This document shows, in pieces, positions 3,951 to 55,477 of a DNA stretch of 64,000 nt. Both the position numbers and the translations under genes were made by a program. Below the pieces are notes generated by a model. That model searched no databases, was not told the origin of the DNA, and was given only the letters and a program-made list of their open reading frames with translations. The stretch is from Anaerolineae bacterium (lineage in GTDB: Bacteria > Chloroflexota > Anaerolineae > Promineifilales > Promineifilaceae): contig JAHBVI010000010.1 in the NCBI GenBank assembly GCA_019637635.1, forward strand, positions 1-64,000. The letters are read 5' to 3'. The first letter of the stretch is position 1; each line of letters begins with the position of its first letter.

Positions 3951-5375
3951 ATGTTAACACTTGCCCATTTTTTCAACGTCCTGATGCCAGAGTACGCGGC
4001 CACCGGTGAGGAACCGGCGGTGGCGGCTGTGGTGATGGACAGCCGCGAGGTGGGGCCTGGCTGCCTGTTTGTGGCCTATAAAGGCGAACAGGTAGACGGG
4101 CACGACTTTGTGGCCGACGCCTTTGCCCGCGGAGCGATTGCGGCATTGGTGGCACGGCCGTTACCCGGCGACCACGCAACCTTAGACTTTCGCGCTGGTC
4201 AGCCTTTGCCGTTCCCCCTGCCCTTCAGCGTGACCACGCCCGTCTGTCTGGTGGTGAGCGATCCCATCGCCACCTTGCAGGCATCCGCCAGAGCGTGGCG
4301 CGCTCGCTTCGCGGTGCAGGTGATCGGCATCACCGGCAGCGTGGGCAAAACCAGCACCAAAGAGCTAACCCACGCCGTGCTGGCGCAGCAGTTCAACACC
4401 TTCAAATCACCCGGCAACCGCAACAGCATTTTAGGCCTGCCCATGGCCCTGTTTGGCCTGGAACCCCACCACCAAAAAGCGGTGCTGGAAATGGCGATGT
4501 ATGTGCCCGGCGAAATTGCCACGCTGTGCGAGATGACGCAGCCGGAGATTGGCGTGGTGACGCTGGTGGGGGCCGTACACCTGGAACGGGCCGGTAGTAT
4601 GGAAGCGATTGTGGCCGCCAAGCGAGAACTGGTAGAGGCGCTGCCCGCGCATGGCGTGGCTATTTTGAACCGGGACGATGACCGGGTGATGAGTATGGCC
4701 GGGCACACGGCGGCACGGGTTTTTACCTATGGCCTGGATGAGCGCGCTGATTTGTGGGCCGACCGCATTGAATCCAGAGGGCTGGATGGCATTCGCTTTG
4801 TGCTACACTACGGCCGTGACCGGCTGCACATTCAAGCCCCCCTCATTGGCCGCCATAGTGTGCATACGGCGCTGCGGGCCACGGCCGTCGGCCTGGCGCT
4901 GAACATGAGTTGGGACAGCATCGTGCGGGGGTTGCAGCACACGGCCGTGGAACTGCGCGTCGTCTCCGCCCCCGGTCCCAAACAATCGCTCATCATTGAC
5001 GACAGCTACAACGCCAACCCGGAATCTACCCTGGCGGCGCTCAATTTGCTGGAAGATTTGCCGGGGCGCAAGGTGGCGGTGTTGGGCGATATGTTGGAAT
5101 TGGGCTATCTGGAAGAGGCGTCACACCGGCTGGTGGGCCGCCGCGTGGCCGATGTCTGCCAGGAACTCATTGCCGTGGGCAGCCGGGCGCGCTGGATTGC
5201 CGAGGAAGCAGTAAAAGCGGGACTGCCGCCAGACCATGTGGCCCTGGCCACGGATGCGCTCACGGCCGTGCCCGTCATCGCCGCCCGCATCCAGCCCCAA
5301 GATGTGATCCTCATCAAAGGCTCTTACGGGATGCGTATGGATCGGATTGTGACGCTGTTGGGAAGATATGATTGA
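3951..5375 (+). CDS. murF: UDP-MurNAc-tripeptide--D-alanyl-D-alanine ligase MurF
   Basis: 474 residues, typical for MurF. An N-terminal uridine-binding domain (DSREVGPGCLFVAYKGE) precedes the P-loop GITGSVGKTSTKE at about 125-137, the KSPGN and NRNS substrate loop and the C-terminal ligase motif DDSYNANPES. It adds D-Ala-D-Ala to the UDP-MurNAc-tripeptide in the cytoplasm. It follows ftsI directly where murE would normally sit. The sequence is of MurF type throughout, not a MurE or a MurE-MurF fusion. Confidence 0.95.
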   Translation: MLTLAHFFNVLMPEYAATGEEPAVAAVVMDSREVGPGCLFVAYKGEQVDGHDFVADAFARGAIAALVARPLPGDHATLDFRAGQPLPFPLPFSVTTPVCLVVSDPIATLQASARAWRARFAVQVIGITGSVGKTSTKELTHAVLAQQFNTFKSPGNRNSILGLPMALFGLEPHHQKAVLEMAMYVPGEIATLCEMTQPEIGVVTLVGAVHLERAGSMEAIVAAKRELVEALPAHGVAILNRDDDRVMSMAGHTAARVFTYGLDERADLWADRIESRGLDGIRFVLHYGRDRLHIQAPLIGRHSVHTALRATAVGLALNMSWDSIVRGLQHTAVELRVVSAPGPKQSLIIDDSYNANPESTLAALNLLEDLPGRKVAVLGDMLELGYLEEASHRLVGRRVADVCQELIAVGSRARWIAEEAVKAGLPPDHVALATDALTAVPVIAARIQPQDVILIKGSYGMRMDRIVTLLGRYD

Positions 5376-5386
5376 AGGAGATTAGA

Positions 5387-5427
5387 GATTAGAGATTGGA
5401 GATTGAATCAATCTCCAATCTCTAATC
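5387..5427. repeat. GATTAGAGATTGGAGATTGA palindrome, copy A2
   Basis: A perfect 20-bp stem (5387-5406 with 5408-5427) is separated by a single base. It fills the murF/mraY gap. Reading through it gives the spurious peptide SPISNLQS, which artificially extends mraY upstream. Confidence 0.92.
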
Positions 5428-5444
5428 TCCAATCACGATATGTT

Positions 5445-6447: not shown

Positions 6448-6513
6448 CGTGATGCGTGATACGTGATGCGTGACCTGGCGCATCACGCATCACGACGCAT
6501 CACGCATCACGAC
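6448..6513. repeat. GTGATGCGTGATACG palindromic array, copy B1
   Basis: The left half repeats CGTGATGCGTGA and the right half repeats its complement (GCATCACGCATCACG), making a long stem with alternative registers. It lies between the mraY stop and the murD ATG at 6514. Relatives occur at 13394 and 46267. Confidence 0.88.
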
Positions 6514-7875
6514 ATGGACGCTTTAACAGGCAAACGACTCCTCATTCTGGGCCTGGCGCGGCAGGGTAAGGCATTGGCCCGTTTTGCCGTCGGCGCGGGC
6601 GCGGTGGTCACGATTTCTGACCTGCGCCCGGCAGAGAAGTTGCAGGCTGACCTGGCCGAGTTGCAGGATTTGCCGATTGAACTGGTCTTAGGAGAACATC
6701 CGATGACTTTATTAGAGAGAACCGACATTTTAGCCATCAGCGGCGGCGTACCGGCCGATGCCCCCTTTGTGCTGGCGGCGCAGGCGCGGGGTATCCCCCT
6801 CACCAATGATGAGCAGGAATTCATCCGCCGCACCCCGGCGGACGTCATCGGCATTACCGGCTCGGCAGGCAAAACAACGACGACGGCGCTGACCGGGGTG
6901 ATGGCGCAGGTGGCCGGGCGGCGCACCTGGGTGGGCGGCAATATCGGCCGTCCATTGATTGCTGATTTACATAAGATGGAATCAGATGATGTGGTGGTGC
7001 AGGAATTGTCCAGTTTTCAGTTGGAAATTTGGGAACAAAGCCCCCCCATTGCCACCGTGTTAAACATCACGCCCAATCACCTTGACCGGCACAAGACAAT
7101 GACAGCCTATGCCAACGCCAAAGCCAACATTTTGCGCTTTCAGGATGAGGATGGCACGGCCGTACTCTGTCTGGATGATCCCGGTTCATTGGCGTTACGG
7201 CCGTTGGTACACGGCCGTTTGCGCCTCTTTAGCCTGGAAAAGCCGGTGGCCGACGGCGCCTTCTTGCACAATGGCAAAATCTGGCTGCGCAACGGACACG
7301 AAACGGCCGTGTGCCGGGTGGAAGATGTGCAGCTACGTGGCCGCCATAACCTGTTGAACGTGTGCGCCGCCATGACCCTGGCCGACACCGCCGGCATTCC
7401 CGCCGAAGCCATGTATGAAGCCATCCGCACCTTCACCGGCGTAGAACACCGGCTGGAACCGGTACGAGAAATCAACGGTGTGCGCTATATCAACGACAGC
7501 ATCGCCACCGCGCCGGAGCGGGCGCTGGCGGCGCTGGCGGCTTTTGACGAGCCGCTCATCTTGCTGGCCGGCGGGCGTGATAAAGATATGCAGTGGGATG
7601 AATGGGCGCGGGTAGTGGCACAGCGCGTGAAACACGTCATCCTCTTTGGTGAACTGGCCGATTTGCTGGAAAAGAAACTAGACCTGACAGGTTTGGCAAA
7701 CCTGTCAGGTCTGGTCACGCGGGGAGAGACGATGGCAGAGGCGGTAAAAGTGGCAGCAAGCACGGCCGTGTCCGGCGACATTGTCCTCCTTTCCCCCGGC
7801 GGCACCAGCTACGACGCCTTCAAAGATTTCGCCGAACGCGGCGAAAAGTTTAGAGAATTGGTGAACTCACTGTAG
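6514..7875 (+). CDS. murD: UDP-N-acetylmuramoylalanine--D-glutamate ligase MurD
   Basis: 453 residues from the ATG at 6514; the preceding in-frame ATG at 6463 would translate the repeat (LAHHASRRITHH) and is rejected. N-terminal Rossmann-like domain (LLILGLARQGKA), P-loop GITGSAGKTTTT, the NITPNHLDRH metal/ATP segment and the C-terminal INDSIATAPE and LLAGGRDKD. It adds D-Glu to UDP-MurNAc-L-Ala. The coding sequence contains an in-frame copy of the ACCTGACAGGTTT hairpin at 7681-7711, read as LDLTGLANLSGL between two ligase-domain segments. Confidence 0.96.
   Translation: MDALTGKRLLILGLARQGKALARFAVGAGAVVTISDLRPAEKLQADLAELQDLPIELVLGEHPMTLLERTDILAISGGVPADAPFVLAAQARGIPLTNDEQEFIRRTPADVIGITGSAGKTTTTALTGVMAQVAGRRTWVGGNIGRPLIADLHKMESDDVVVQELSSFQLEIWEQSPPIATVLNITPNHLDRHKTMTAYANAKANILRFQDEDGTAVLCLDDPGSLALRPLVHGRLRLFSLEKPVADGAFLHNGKIWLRNGHETAVCRVEDVQLRGRHNLLNVCAAMTLADTAGIPAEAMYEAIRTFTGVEHRLEPVREINGVRYINDSIATAPERALAALAAFDEPLILLAGGRDKDMQWDEWARVVAQRVKHVILFGELADLLEKKLDLTGLANLSGLVTRGETMAEAVKVAASTAVSGDIVLLSPGGTSYDAFKDFAERGEKFRELVNSL
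7681..7711. repeat. GACCTGACAGGTTT hairpin, copy 2, inside murD
   Basis: A perfect 14-bp stem (7681-7694 with 7698-7711) with loop GGC lies wholly within the murD reading frame. Outside murD the same element sits between genes (203, 35062, 40757). The loop and arms match the 35062 copy almost exactly. Confidence 0.9.
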
Positions 7876-10915: not shown

Positions 10916-10916
10916 T

Positions 10917-10967
10917 GGAGATTAGAGATTGGAGATTGAAACCTCCAATCTCCAATCTCTAATCTCC
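10917..10967. repeat. GGAGATTAGAGATTGGAGATT palindrome, copy A3
   Basis: A perfect 21-bp stem (10917-10937 with 10947-10967) has a 9-nt loop. It starts within 2 bp of the cvpA stop, and 11 bp separate it from the murC ATG. Confidence 0.92.
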
Positions 10968-10978
10968 AATCTCTGGTA

Positions 10979-12436: not shown

Positions 12437-13396
12437 ATGAACATTACATCAACCATCCGTCTGGCTACCTACAAACTGTTTTATGAAACATTTGGTGATG
12501 CGTTGCAGCTTGATATGCCGCTCAGCCGGTATACGTCGGCGCGGGTGGGCGGCCCGGCCGAAATGTTCCTGACCGTGTACGACGCCCCCTCCCTGCAAAA
12601 AGCGGTGGAACTGGCTTACGCCGAGCAAATCCCCTACTTTATTTTGGGCGGCGGCTCCAACATTTTAGTGTCCGACGAGGGCGTGGCCGGTCTGGTAATT
12701 ATGAACCGGGCCAAAAACATCAGCTACCGCCACATTGGGGCGCACGTGGTTTGCACGGTGGAATCGGGCGCCAATCTCTCATCGCTGGCGCGGCAGTGCA
12801 TTGGCAAAGGGCTGGGCGGCCTGGAATGGGCCATTGGCGTGCCGGGCACAGTGGGCGGCGCGGTGGTGGGCAATGCCGGGGCGCACGGCAGCGATATGGC
12901 CGCCACCCTGCGCGCAGCCACGGTGTGGGAACCGGGCCGCGGCGTGCGTATCTACAACAACCATGAGATGGAGTACGGCTATCGGACAAGCATTTTGAAG
13001 AAGGAACACGGCCGTGAGATTTTTCGCCGCGTCATTTTAACCGCCGAACTGGTGCTGACCCCGGAGAGCGTGGACGTTCTTACCGCCCGCGCCGAAGGCT
13101 TTACCGCCCATCGCAAACAGACACAGCCCGGCGGCGCTACCGTTGGCTCCATGTTCAAAAACCCGGAAAATTATTACGCCGGCTATCTGATTGAAGCCGC
13201 GGGGCTGAAAGGGTATCGCGTGGGCGGCGCGCACATTTCGGAGAAACACGCCAACTTTTTTGTGAATGACGAAGACGCCACCGCCGAAAACGTGCGCACG
13301 CTGATTGCCGAAGCCTGGAATTCCGTGCGCGAACGGTTTGACGTGGAAATGGAATTGGAAGTGGAGTTGGTGGGAAAGTGGGATTTTGAAGCGTAA
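12437..13396 (+). CDS. murB: UDP-N-acetylenolpyruvoylglucosamine reductase MurB
   Basis: 319 residues. FAD-binding motifs GGGSNILVSDEG, the WAIGVPGTVGGAVVGNAGAHG loop, YGYRTS-like, and PGGATVGSMFKNP with the catalytic serine near the C-terminal third; GLKGYRVGGAHISEKHANF follows. It reduces UDP-GlcNAc-enolpyruvate to UDP-MurNAc with NADPH. Position between murC and ddl is typical. Start ATG at 12437. Confidence 0.96.
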   Translation: MNITSTIRLATYKLFYETFGDALQLDMPLSRYTSARVGGPAEMFLTVYDAPSLQKAVELAYAEQIPYFILGGGSNILVSDEGVAGLVIMNRAKNISYRHIGAHVVCTVESGANLSSLARQCIGKGLGGLEWAIGVPGTVGGAVVGNAGAHGSDMAATLRAATVWEPGRGVRIYNNHEMEYGYRTSILKKEHGREIFRRVILTAELVLTPESVDVLTARAEGFTAHRKQTQPGGATVGSMFKNPENYYAGYLIEAAGLKGYRVGGAHISEKHANFFVNDEDATAENVRTLIAEAWNSVRERFDVEMELEVELVGKWDFEA

Positions 13397-13458
13397 AACG
13401 TGATACGTGATGCGTGACCCGTGATGGTGTCACGCATCACGCATCACGCATCACGAGT
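13393..13458. repeat. GTGATACGTGATGCG palindromic array, copy B2
   Basis: The left half (AACGTGATACGTGATGCGTGACC) faces GTCACGCATCACGCATCACGCATCACG. It overlaps the murB stop (TAA), and translation through it creates a false ddl N-terminus (RITHHASRV). Confidence 0.88.
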
Positions 13459-35061: not shown

Positions 35062-35098
35062 AGAGAGCTGACAGGTTTGGCAAACCTGTCAGCTCTCT
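35062..35098. repeat. AGAGAGCTGACAGGTTT hairpin, copy 3
   Basis: A perfect 17-bp stem (35062-35078 with 35082-35098) with loop GGC follows the regulator stop codon. Core and loop equal the murD copy. No T-run. Confidence 0.88.
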
Positions 35099-40756: not shown

Positions 40757-40789
40757 AGACCTGACAGGTTTTTGAAATCTGTCAGGTCT
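40757..40789. repeat. AGACCTGACAGGTTT hairpin, copy 4
   Basis: The stem of about 15 bp contains one mismatch (AAATCTGTCAGGTCT). It lies upstream of the SD of the EEP gene on the minus strand. Confidence 0.82.
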
Positions 40790-40845: not shown

Positions 40846-40878
40846 AGACATCCGATTTTTCAAAAAAATCGGATGTCT
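40846..40878. terminator. AGACATCCGATTTTT hairpin downstream of the P-type ATPase
   Basis: A perfect 15-bp stem (40846-40860 with 40864-40878), loop of 3 nt, with T5/A7 runs inside the stem. It lies 28 bp past the ATPase stop codon on the minus strand and ends with a T-run inside its right arm. Terminator function is plausible. Confidence 0.6.
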
Positions 40879-46266: not shown

Positions 46267-46319
46267 CGTGACGTGTGACGTGTGACGTGTGATTCCTCAC
46301 ACGTCACACGTCACAGTTT
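46267..46319. repeat. TGACGTGTGACGTGTG palindrome (family B, copy B3)
   Basis: The left half GTGACGTGTGACGTGTGACGTGTG pairs with CACACGTCACACGTCAC around ATTCCT; about 17 bp. On the minus strand it starts at the stop codon of the zinc-ribbon membrane protein. Confidence 0.88.
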
Positions 46320-49693: not shown

Positions 49694-49718
49694 CAGGTTT
49701 TTAAGAACCTGTCAGGTG
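49694..49718. repeat. CAGGTTTTTAAGAACCTGTCAGG, decayed copy 5
   Basis: Only CAGGTT/AACCTG pair in this copy. It sits 10-30 bp before the ATG of the first ABC exporter half. Confidence 0.6.
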
Positions 49719-52378: not shown

Positions 52379-53528
52379 CTTTCCTAAACATATAGAAATT
52401 GTTGTCATTGGTGGGGGGGTGATGGGCGCGAGTACGGCCTATCATCTGGCGCGGCGCGGGGCGCGGGATGTGGCCTTGCTGGAGAAAGAGTCGTTCTTCG
52501 GCACCGGGGCGACGGGGCGCTGTGCCGGCGGCGTGCGTTACCAGTTCAGCACCGAGGTCAACATTCGCCTGTCGCAGGCCAGTTTGCCCATGCTGGATCG
52601 CTTTGAGGAGGAGATGGGGCAGGCCATTGACCGGCGGCGCTGCGGGTATTACTTGCTGCTCACCCGCGAACAAGATGTGCCCCAATTCCGGCGCAACGTG
52701 GAACTCCAGCACCGGTTGGGTGTGCCCACGCAATGGCTGTCTGGCGATGAAGTGCGGCAGCGACTACCATTTCTCAAGGCGGATGACGTGCTGGCGGCCA
52801 CCGTTTGCCCGGAGGATGGGCTGGCGGACCCGAACGGGGTGGTGGCGGGGTACGTGAATGGGGCCAGACGGCTGGGGGTGCAATTGTGGGCGGACACGGC
52901 CGTACACGCCATCACGTATAAAAATAAAACCTACACCATCCACACCAACCAGGGCGACATCCAGTGCGAAAAGATCGTCAACGCCGCCGGGCCCTGGGCC
53001 GGGCAGATCAGCGACATGTTGGGCGTGCCGCTGCCCATTGTGCCCCTGCGCCGCCAGTGGATTACCACCACCCCCCTGCCCGACCTGCCGCCCGATTTCC
53101 CTTTTGTCATTTTCTTCGGCCAGAGCCTCTACTTCCACCCCGAAGGCAAAGGGCTGCTCACCGGCATGTCCAACCCGCGCGAGCAGCCGGGCTTTGACCA
53201 GTCGGTGGATGAAGCGTGGGAACTGGTGCATTTAGAGGCGGCCATTCACCGGCTGCCCCTGCTGGAAAGAGCCGGGCGGCAGTCCGGGTTGGCCGGGTTG
53301 TATGAGATGACGCCAGACGCCCACCCCATCATCAGCGGCGTGCCGGGCGTGGATGGGTATTACGTGGTCGCCGGTTTCTCCGGGCATGGCTTCATGCACG
53401 GCCCCATTGCCGGTAAGCTGATGGCGGAGATTATCCTCGATGGGGCCGCACACACGGTTGACGTCAGTATGTTGGACTACGCGCGGTTTGGCGACGGCCG
53501 TTTCATTCAGGAGTACAATGTGGTATGA
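52371..53528 (+). CDS. FAD-dependent oxidoreductase (DAO/sarcosine oxidase beta-like)
   Basis: 385 residues from the ATG at 52371, which overlaps the Fic stop. Dinucleotide-binding VIGGGVMGASTAYHLARRG, FSTEVNIRLSQAS, NAAGPWAG and C-terminal GLYEMTPDAHPIISG...VVAGFSGHGFMHGP are typical of the DAO family. It oxidises a primary or secondary amine, such as sarcosine, proline or glycine, with FAD. Substrate not determined. The stop codon TGA lies at the start of hairpin A7. Confidence 0.88.
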   Translation: MANFPKHIEIVVIGGGVMGASTAYHLARRGARDVALLEKESFFGTGATGRCAGGVRYQFSTEVNIRLSQASLPMLDRFEEEMGQAIDRRRCGYYLLLTREQDVPQFRRNVELQHRLGVPTQWLSGDEVRQRLPFLKADDVLAATVCPEDGLADPNGVVAGYVNGARRLGVQLWADTAVHAITYKNKTYTIHTNQGDIQCEKIVNAAGPWAGQISDMLGVPLPIVPLRRQWITTTPLPDLPPDFPFVIFFGQSLYFHPEGKGLLTGMSNPREQPGFDQSVDEAWELVHLEAAIHRLPLLERAGRQSGLAGLYEMTPDAHPIISGVPGVDGYYVVAGFSGHGFMHGPIAGKLMAEIILDGAAHTVDVSMLDYARFGDGRFIQEYNVV

Positions 53529-53585
53529 GATTGGAGATTAGAGATTGGAGATGGGTCGAATCTCCAATCTCTAATCTCCAATCTC
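53527..53585. repeat. GAGATTGGAGATTAGAGATT palindrome, copy A7
   Basis: A perfect 26-bp stem (53527-53552 with 53560-53585) with a 7-nt loop, the longest of the class. It contains the oxidoreductase stop and ends 13 bp before the next ATG. Confidence 0.94.
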
Positions 53586-53597
53586 TTGAGAACTTTT

Positions 53598-55442: not shown

Positions 55443-55477
55443 AGACCTGGCAGGTTTTTGAAAACCTGTCAGATCTG
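55443..55477. repeat. AGACCTGGCAGGTTTTTG hairpin, copy 6
   Basis: The imperfect stem (AGACCTGGCAGGTTTT with AAAACCTGTCAGATCT) follows the ABC half 2 stop codon and precedes the terminator. Confidence 0.8.

Follow-up and report, generated by a model that had tools for sequence, protein, structure and literature searches.

The hairpin in murD

The window analyzed here is a 64,000-nucleotide stretch of DNA (contig JAHBVI010000010.1, positions 1 to 64,000) from an Anaerolineae bacterium of the phylum Chloroflexota, and its murD gene carries a perfect hairpin within the coding sequence. The genome around the window (G000) comprises 7.49 Mb in 299 contigs. The murD frame matches TIGR01087 with a score of 384.9 bits, as compared to the cut-off of 212, and the start that agrees with the orthologues is the ATG at 6514, instead of the GTG at 6463 given in a mechanical list of open reading frames (ORFs). 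The two features are as follows.

6514–7875, plus strand: murD coding sequence, 453 amino acids (TIGR01087 equivalog match; start set from the orthologue alignment).
7680–7712, no strand assigned: 33-bp hairpin in frame in murD, codons L389–L400 (sequence and orthologue alignment).

The hairpin consists of AGACCTGACAGGTTT-GGC-AAACCTGTCAGGTCT (15 + 3 + 15 nucleotides), and is translated as L389-DLTGLANLSG-L400. When folded as single-stranded DNA, the 33-mer reaches −15.9 kcal/mol (z = −7.2) and beats 200 of 200 shuffled sequences. The presence of a hairpin in frame in murD is confirmed: an earlier note on this DNA had placed it at 7681–7711, where it indeed lies, the symmetric unit running from 7680 to 7712.

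The place of the insert was checked on a predicted MurD structure (mean predicted local distance difference test score (pLDDT), 88.4; predicted template modeling score, 0.80), which aligns with Escherichia coli MurD (4uag) over 423 residues with a Z-score of 44.6 and a root-mean-square deviation of 2.2. In this model, the insert forms a low-confidence loop of the C-terminal domain, between the helix of residues 382–390 and the strand of residues 401–404. Residues 391–400 are the block of lowest confidence (pLDDT 60), and none of the residues 390–409 is invariant among 26 sequences.

The murD site in related genomes

A search of 118 related genomes detected murD in 115, and 30 loci were aligned, six from the same genus (g1) and 24 from other genera. 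A hairpin occupies the murD loop in five of the 30 orthologues, every one in the same genus. The hairpins of G000, G002, G003, and G004 belong to one family, hereafter called the CCTGACAGG family; G001 has another hairpin, AGACATCCGATTTTT-TGA-AAAAATCGGATGTCT, at the same codons, offset by one extra codon. The sixth and most distant member of the genus, G005, has 11 unrelated codons in a loop of the same length, without a hairpin. The loops of the 24 murD genes from other genera are unrelated, lack a hairpin, and are 4–7 codons shorter where measured.

Among the five murD hairpins, all 15 base pairs stay paired (100% of the cells of the alignment) and seven of the 15 are changed on both sides, a level reached by none of 500 shuffles; the test comprises four distinct rows, with most of the changes coming from the G001 hairpin and one from G003. 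The encoded peptide, in turn, changes from DLTGLANLSGL to DIRFFEKIGCL. As the peptide varies but the stem persists, this stretch of murD is an insertion, and not an old coding segment, and the recurring thing is the DNA structure rather than the peptide. The alignment supports the reading of a tolerated in-frame insertion: the earlier note held that the stretch would be an old segment if all related MurD proteins shared it, and the 30 orthologues do not. Its description of a twelve-residue peptide insertion stands as to an insertion in the murD loop, but not as to a clean gain of 12 residues, since the net gain over the other genera is 4–7 codons and the hairpin fills a variable loop. The note also left it open whether the element moved into the gene or arose within it. 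The former is better supported, because identical 15-nucleotide arms are seen again in other genomes and phyla and stand on the flanks of transposase genes of the RAYT type (repetitive extragenic palindrome (REP)-associated tyrosine transposases).

In the murD-ftsW gap of G002 (contig C2), a AGACATCCGATTTC hairpin holds a second small hairpin, GCAACCAAAGGTTGC, in its loop, as nested elements.

In-frame copies in other genes

Copies in G000 genes were surveyed with the 61 copies that have flanks, out of the 72 CCTGACAGG-type copies found by a loose pattern plus the copies of a further family, ATCCGATT. Most of the 61 lie outside coding ORFs; five are in frame, flanked on either side by codon use resembling that of coding sequence, in murD, purC, gltB, a glycosyltransferase gene, and a large membrane-like ORF (L266) without a Pfam match. 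A sixth candidate, L234:6149, was set aside, since the frame it lies in appears to be antisense.

The purC sequences show a clean gain of 33 bp. The unit is present in G000 and G002, while purC of G003 lacks it and is exactly 33 bp shorter, with an otherwise equal length. It is also missing in G004 and seven outgroups, G005 has a degenerate 33-nucleotide stretch, and purC was not found in G001. In gltB, the hairpins of G000 and G002 are of the AGACATCCGATTTCT type, a AGAAGCCGGGCTTTT hairpin occupies the same loop in G001 and G003, and the G004 copy is decayed.

Among the stretches retrieved from the Genome Taxonomy Database (GTDB), 17 of 113 copies fall in ORFs of at least 150 amino acids. Five such ORFs were searched against Pfam. 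The copy of L172 (34 bp) lies inside a HATPase_c domain, those of L094, L171, and L182 lie outside the matched stretches, so that the open frame is what marks them as coding, and the fifth ORF is the RAYT gene of L116. The open frame that holds the L182 copy (L182:5407–7536) matches UvrD/Rep-helicase. In G000, all five in-gene copies are 33 bp long, while among the others this length is seen in 25 of 51 (one-sided P = 0.037); the corresponding values for the GTDB stretches are 4 of 5 and 68 of 108 (P = 0.40), with a pooled P of 0.044. The bias of in-gene copies toward 33 bp is thereby weak.

Architecture, copy number, and spread

The unit measures 33 or 34 bp, with two 15-nucleotide arms and a loop of 3–4 nucleotides. 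Each arm is composed of three nucleotides, a nine-nucleotide near-palindrome (4-1-4), and three further nucleotides; among ten arm families, all four core pairs are formed in six and three pairs in two. In 117 copies from the GTDB stretches, the loop has three nucleotides in 74 and four in 36. The boundaries are sharp: the T completing AGA...TCT stands beside the searched 14-nucleotide arm in 228 of 232 flanks of these copies, with no conserved bases beyond it.

G000 contains 61 CCTGACAGG-type copies by the strict pattern and 72 by the loose one, with none for the reversed control pattern, and nine ATCCGATT copies (strict pattern). The strict pattern occurs in 31 of the 118 related genomes, and the arms are identical in records of Bacteroidota and Proteobacteria. 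Among the matches listed in the GTDB scan are Chloroflexota, Flavobacterium, Gelidibacter, Cyclobacterium, Marithrix, Thiomargarita, Halobeggiatoa, Methylomonas, and Methylovulum. In 18 genomes picked for holding a copy, the number ranges from one (Cyclobacterium, one Flavobacterium, and Polaribacter) to 99 in Marithrix, 111 in Thiomargarita, and 191 in a metagenome-assembled genome (MAG) of Chloroflexota. G019, a high-copy genome, has 193 copies. The loop letters vary by genome (an Anaerolineae MAG has TTAG/CTAA, for example, and a Chitinophagales MAG has CAA/TTG), a pattern suggestive of amplification within each genome.

The strict pattern is also present in eight IMG/VR stretches; one of them (L291) has three copies in a 51-bp tandem array at 12949–13081 and a fourth at 4837. 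A BLAST search of the 33-mer against plasmids and phages gave no match, which is a weak test for a query of this length. We found no description of this hairpin family in the open-licence literature searched; the matches to the ACCTGTCAGGT string there are unrelated by title, and those listed for the CCTGACAGG string look, by title, like primers.

Turnover of hairpin sites

We compared 24 hairpin sites between species. In the 92 site-by-species comparisons, the same family was found in 23, a different hairpin in 22, no hairpin in 38, and an empty site in nine, while shuffled sequences, used as the control, gave 0.5% hairpins. Among the 22 different hairpins, that of L250 in G002 in fact belongs to the same family and differs by compensatory changes at three pairs. 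Compensatory changes between orthologous copies also distinguish the G000 copy at 35064 from that of G001. Precise empty sites are seen for L237:7789, empty in G001–G004, and for the L008 site, empty in G002 and G005.

Hairpins occupy 17 of the 43 intergenic gaps of at least 40 nucleotides in contig C2 of G000. A directed exchange at intergenic sites was considered and rejected, as hairpin-free gaps of G000 hold a sister hairpin in 14 of 33 comparisons. At random coding positions, a hairpin was found in none of 161 sister comparisons, and the claim of site exchange is therefore kept for coding sites only: a different family stands in the sister at two of the three in-frame sites compared (murD and gltB, but not purC).

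Transposase genes beside the hairpins

Among 112 GTDB stretches, three Y1 transposase genes were found, two of which are those of L116 and L119. In L116 (Bacteroidota), three CCTGACAGG hairpins stand at the Y1 gene, one of them in frame inside it; this gene was recognized by a home-made profile (leave-one-out E = 8.7e-45), and not by Pfam. In L119 (Gelidibacter gilvus), one CCTGACAGG hairpin lies about 20 nucleotides upstream of the Y1 gene.

The host genome contains a Y1 gene (PF01797) at L365 (contig C58), with 33-bp hairpins, AACCTCCCGGAGCTT-TCA-AAGCTCCGGGAGGTT (15 + 3 + 15), on either side and an array in frame near the C-terminus. L197 of G006 follows the same plan with AACTTCCCGGAACCT arms, and its in-frame copy is at the same place of the protein. 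At L365:1331–1393 and 1904–1984, one arm is repeated three to four times in tandem ahead of a single opposite arm, as if the arms self-amplify.

No RAYT relatives were found in viral contigs, and the plasmid RAYTs L363 and L364 are without a 33-bp hairpin of the CCTGACAGG kind. L364, on the Chloroflexota plasmid CP069395.1, has GGTGCGCAT/ATGCGCACC-type hairpins on both sides of the RAYT gene, a further RAYT-hairpin pair in the phylum.

Origin of the murD hairpin

How did the hairpin enter murD? We consider it probable that a short, REP-like mobile element without a tag, moved by HUH/Y1 transposases (RAYTs), left one of its copies there. A RAYT would recognize the folded single strand of the hairpin, as proposed for REPs, and would then excise or copy it and paste it elsewhere. 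Most in-gene insertions would be lost, while those in flexible surface loops would survive, because 33 bp makes 11 codons and stop codons occur in only one of the three frames. The MurD insert peptide would have no selected function, and the same loop would be re-used by other hairpin families. A RAYT of the L116/L119/L365 kind may move this hairpin, or may once have moved it.

Several observations weigh against this proposal. The 27 Y1 genes found in nine family genomes all lack a nearby CCTGACAGG or ATCCGATT hairpin (about 1.5 kb around each gene), and a cognate RAYT for the CCTGACAGG arms is not found in the host among the Y1 genes examined, the search for transposases having covered Y1 genes. 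The RAYT links for these arms are few, and L116 and L119 come from loci picked for holding the hairpin. The REP guide tag GT[AG]G, sought 0–2 nucleotides from the base of the hairpin, occurs at 3 of 310 feet, as compared to 7 at the control position, and the hairpin is hence not a canonical REP; a CGTC tag at the hairpin end is likewise rare (4 of 310 feet, with 3 in the control). Two insertions carry 7–8 bp direct repeats and extra flanking bases, while purC has no repeat. Moreover, it is from sequence comparison that we infer the mobility of the hairpin.

The direct repeats are unpredicted by RAYT peel-and-paste, suit a staggered cut, and keep alive the idea that the hairpins are miniature inverted-repeat transposable elements (MITEs) of a DDE-type insertion sequence, inserted at a staggered break with a 7–8 bp target duplication, the RAYT neighbors being incidental. 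Repeats of 8 bp (TTCATAGC) and 7 bp (CATAAAC) surround an insert of 45–50 bp at two sites with empty relatives, and flanking repeats of at least 7 bp occur in 18 of 212 copies, as compared to a mean of 7.65 and a maximum of 14 for shuffled pairings. We nevertheless regard this origin as unlikely, given that several of the 18 cases belong to tandem arrays or lie a long way from the hairpin, that the bases between repeat and hairpin are unconserved outside a small sub-lineage, and that the purC gain is exactly 33 bp. A target-site duplication is real at two sites but does not appear to be general, and a longer unit, GTAnCCGTTT-hairpin, occurs at a few sites only. The strict conservation of the stem with compensatory changes, together with the hairpin-rich intergenic gaps, could instead mean that the hairpin is retained because it serves a function itself (in mRNA folding, in termination, in the pausing of translation, or in binding a protein), with the families replacing one another under structural selection. 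However, the hairpin is missing from 24 of the 30 MurD orthologues (those of other genera) and from G005. Of the five genus members in which purC was found, two lack the unit there and a third has the degenerate stretch only, and the sister hairpins in hairpin-free G000 gaps make intergenic turnover a background process rather than a site-specific exchange. In addition, template-switch repair of quasi-palindromes can also yield compensatory change. The upkeep of the stem could thus come from selection on structure or from such repair, both of which fit the data, and a function of its own seems to us quite improbable.

Template switching during replication can also create palindromes, and many unrelated hairpins exist in this genus, so the murD hairpin might have arisen in place, resembling the dispersed family by chance or convergence. 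This is very improbable: identical 15-nucleotide arms at 61 places in G000 and in other phyla cannot be local inventions, and random coding positions gave no hairpin in the sister comparisons. We give hardly any credence to an ancient coding segment of MurD, for which the equal loop length of G005 would speak. The 24 orthologues of other genera have unrelated and, where measured, shorter loops, and the hairpin family changes between sisters. As to its sequence, the alignment refutes this reading, the loop length in the ancestor of the genus being left aside.

Extending the preferred reading, a copy moved by RAYTs, we tentatively suggest that untagged hairpins of 33 bp whose arms are palindromic (3 + 4-1-4 + 3, triloop) may form a separate RAYT-moved superfamily across Chloroflexota, Bacteroidota, and Proteobacteria. 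Their codon-multiple length might then yield recurrent 11-residue modules that repeatedly hit the same loops (MurD, GltB, and RAYT) with unrelated sequences.

Other copies in the window

ACCTGACAGGT with at most one mismatch has 18 matches in the window, as compared to 0.63 expected, and Rfam 15 at gathering scores has none. The further features, with no strand assigned, are listed below.

203–235: same-family copy, ending 10 nucleotides ahead of the first ORF, which has its ATG at 246 (pattern scan).
35064–35096: same-family copy with a compensatory stem change, AGAGCTGACAGG/CCTGTCAGCTCT; the G001 orthologue has the consensus arms (pattern scan and sister comparison).
40757–40789: same-family copy with one stem mismatch.
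55443–55476: same-family 34-bp copy with two stem changes.
40846–40878: 33-bp hairpin of a second family (AGACATCCGATTTTT), the family that fills the murD site in sister G001.
17–51: hairpin of another family, with AGAACCTCCTGGTTG arms.
49707–49717: lone half-site ACCTGTCAGGT.

The first ORF is presumably mraZ-like. The earlier note had reported four copies between genes, at 203, 35062, 40757, and 55443. All four are real, with the second at 35064, and the last three deviate from the consensus; their placement as all intergenic is in doubt, as 40757–40789 falls within an ORF called by a crude gene caller.

Hairpins built from tandem words of 7–9 nucleotides (GGAGATTAGAGATT, CGTGATGCGTGAT, GTAATTGGGTAATTGAG, CAGTGAGCAGT, and GAATTATGAATT) lie between genes at 1667–1719, 5380–5434, 6455–6494, 10916–10968, 13399–13448, 46268–46314, and 53525–53587, together with related ones, and the GGAGATTAGAGATT type has numerous relatives in sister genomes. 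The same words are seemingly also read in frame inside proteins at L239:1177–2583 and L266:548–2812 (LQSLISNLQSPIS; DWRLEIGDWVNLQSLISNLS).

Comparison with known systems

The comparisons in this section draw on parts of the cited papers. The Rickettsia palindromic elements (RPEs) comprise several palindromic families located in frame in unrelated protein genes (PMC10969869), a trait shared with this hairpin. RPEs are about 150 bp long with a conserved ORF peptide (PMC10969869), whereas the present unit has 33 bp, lacks a conserved peptide, and occurs across phyla.

REPs tagged with GTAG or CGTC are short and mainly intergenic, with some in frame in conserved genes (PMC3733652). The present hairpin likewise is a short palindrome in many intergenic copies (61–72 in G000), and it shares with the CGTC REPs and the RPEs the in-frame insertion in protein genes (murD, purC, gltB, and two more). 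It differs in its 15-bp, untagged stem, as compared to tagged stems of 5–13 or 8–9 bp (PMC3733652). The recB genes of two Xanthomonas species have different REPs at about the same site, a precedent for the re-use of sites in murD and gltB, and many intragenic REPs are in repair genes, beside which the UvrD/Rep-helicase match at L182 may be set (PMC3733652).

In subclass 2.4 of TnpA-REP, REPs are located in frame inside the gene, generally between motifs, and L116 with its in-frame hairpin closely resembles this arrangement (PMC6006769). Canonical 2.4 REPs have GT[AG]G or a double foot, whereas this family is untagged, and the AGA/TTT 15-3-15 unit with palindromic arms is not met in the parts of PMC6006769 drawn on here. 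Subclass 2.6 (“atypical secondary structures”) from Bacteroidetes has hairpins without GT[AG]G near the RAYT, as here; its motif is NH[LIV]H, as compared to NHFH in L116 and L119, and its hairpins were compared by description only (PMC6006769). Ca. Thiomargarita nelsonii has MITEs in hupL and dsrA with 10-bp or TATAG direct repeats, and unidentified palindromic repeats are reported for it (PMC4853749). Its genus also carries the present hairpin, with 111 copies in one MAG, and the MITEs described differ by their direct repeats (PMC4853749).

In-frame REPs are already known, from the Rickettsia RPEs and from REPs inside tnpA-REP. What is new is the hairpin family, its architecture (untagged, 33 bp, palindromic arms), its spread across phyla, and the re-use of coding sites by unrelated families. 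A mobile-looking palindrome thus stands in frame in an enzyme that is essential for peptidoglycan, in a phylum that is free-living and non-rickettsial, and the relatives with empty, filled, and differently filled in-gene sites make REP-like movement and neutral acceptance testable at defined codons. The RAYT-linked hairpins are thereby joined by a form that lacks the GTAG guide tag.
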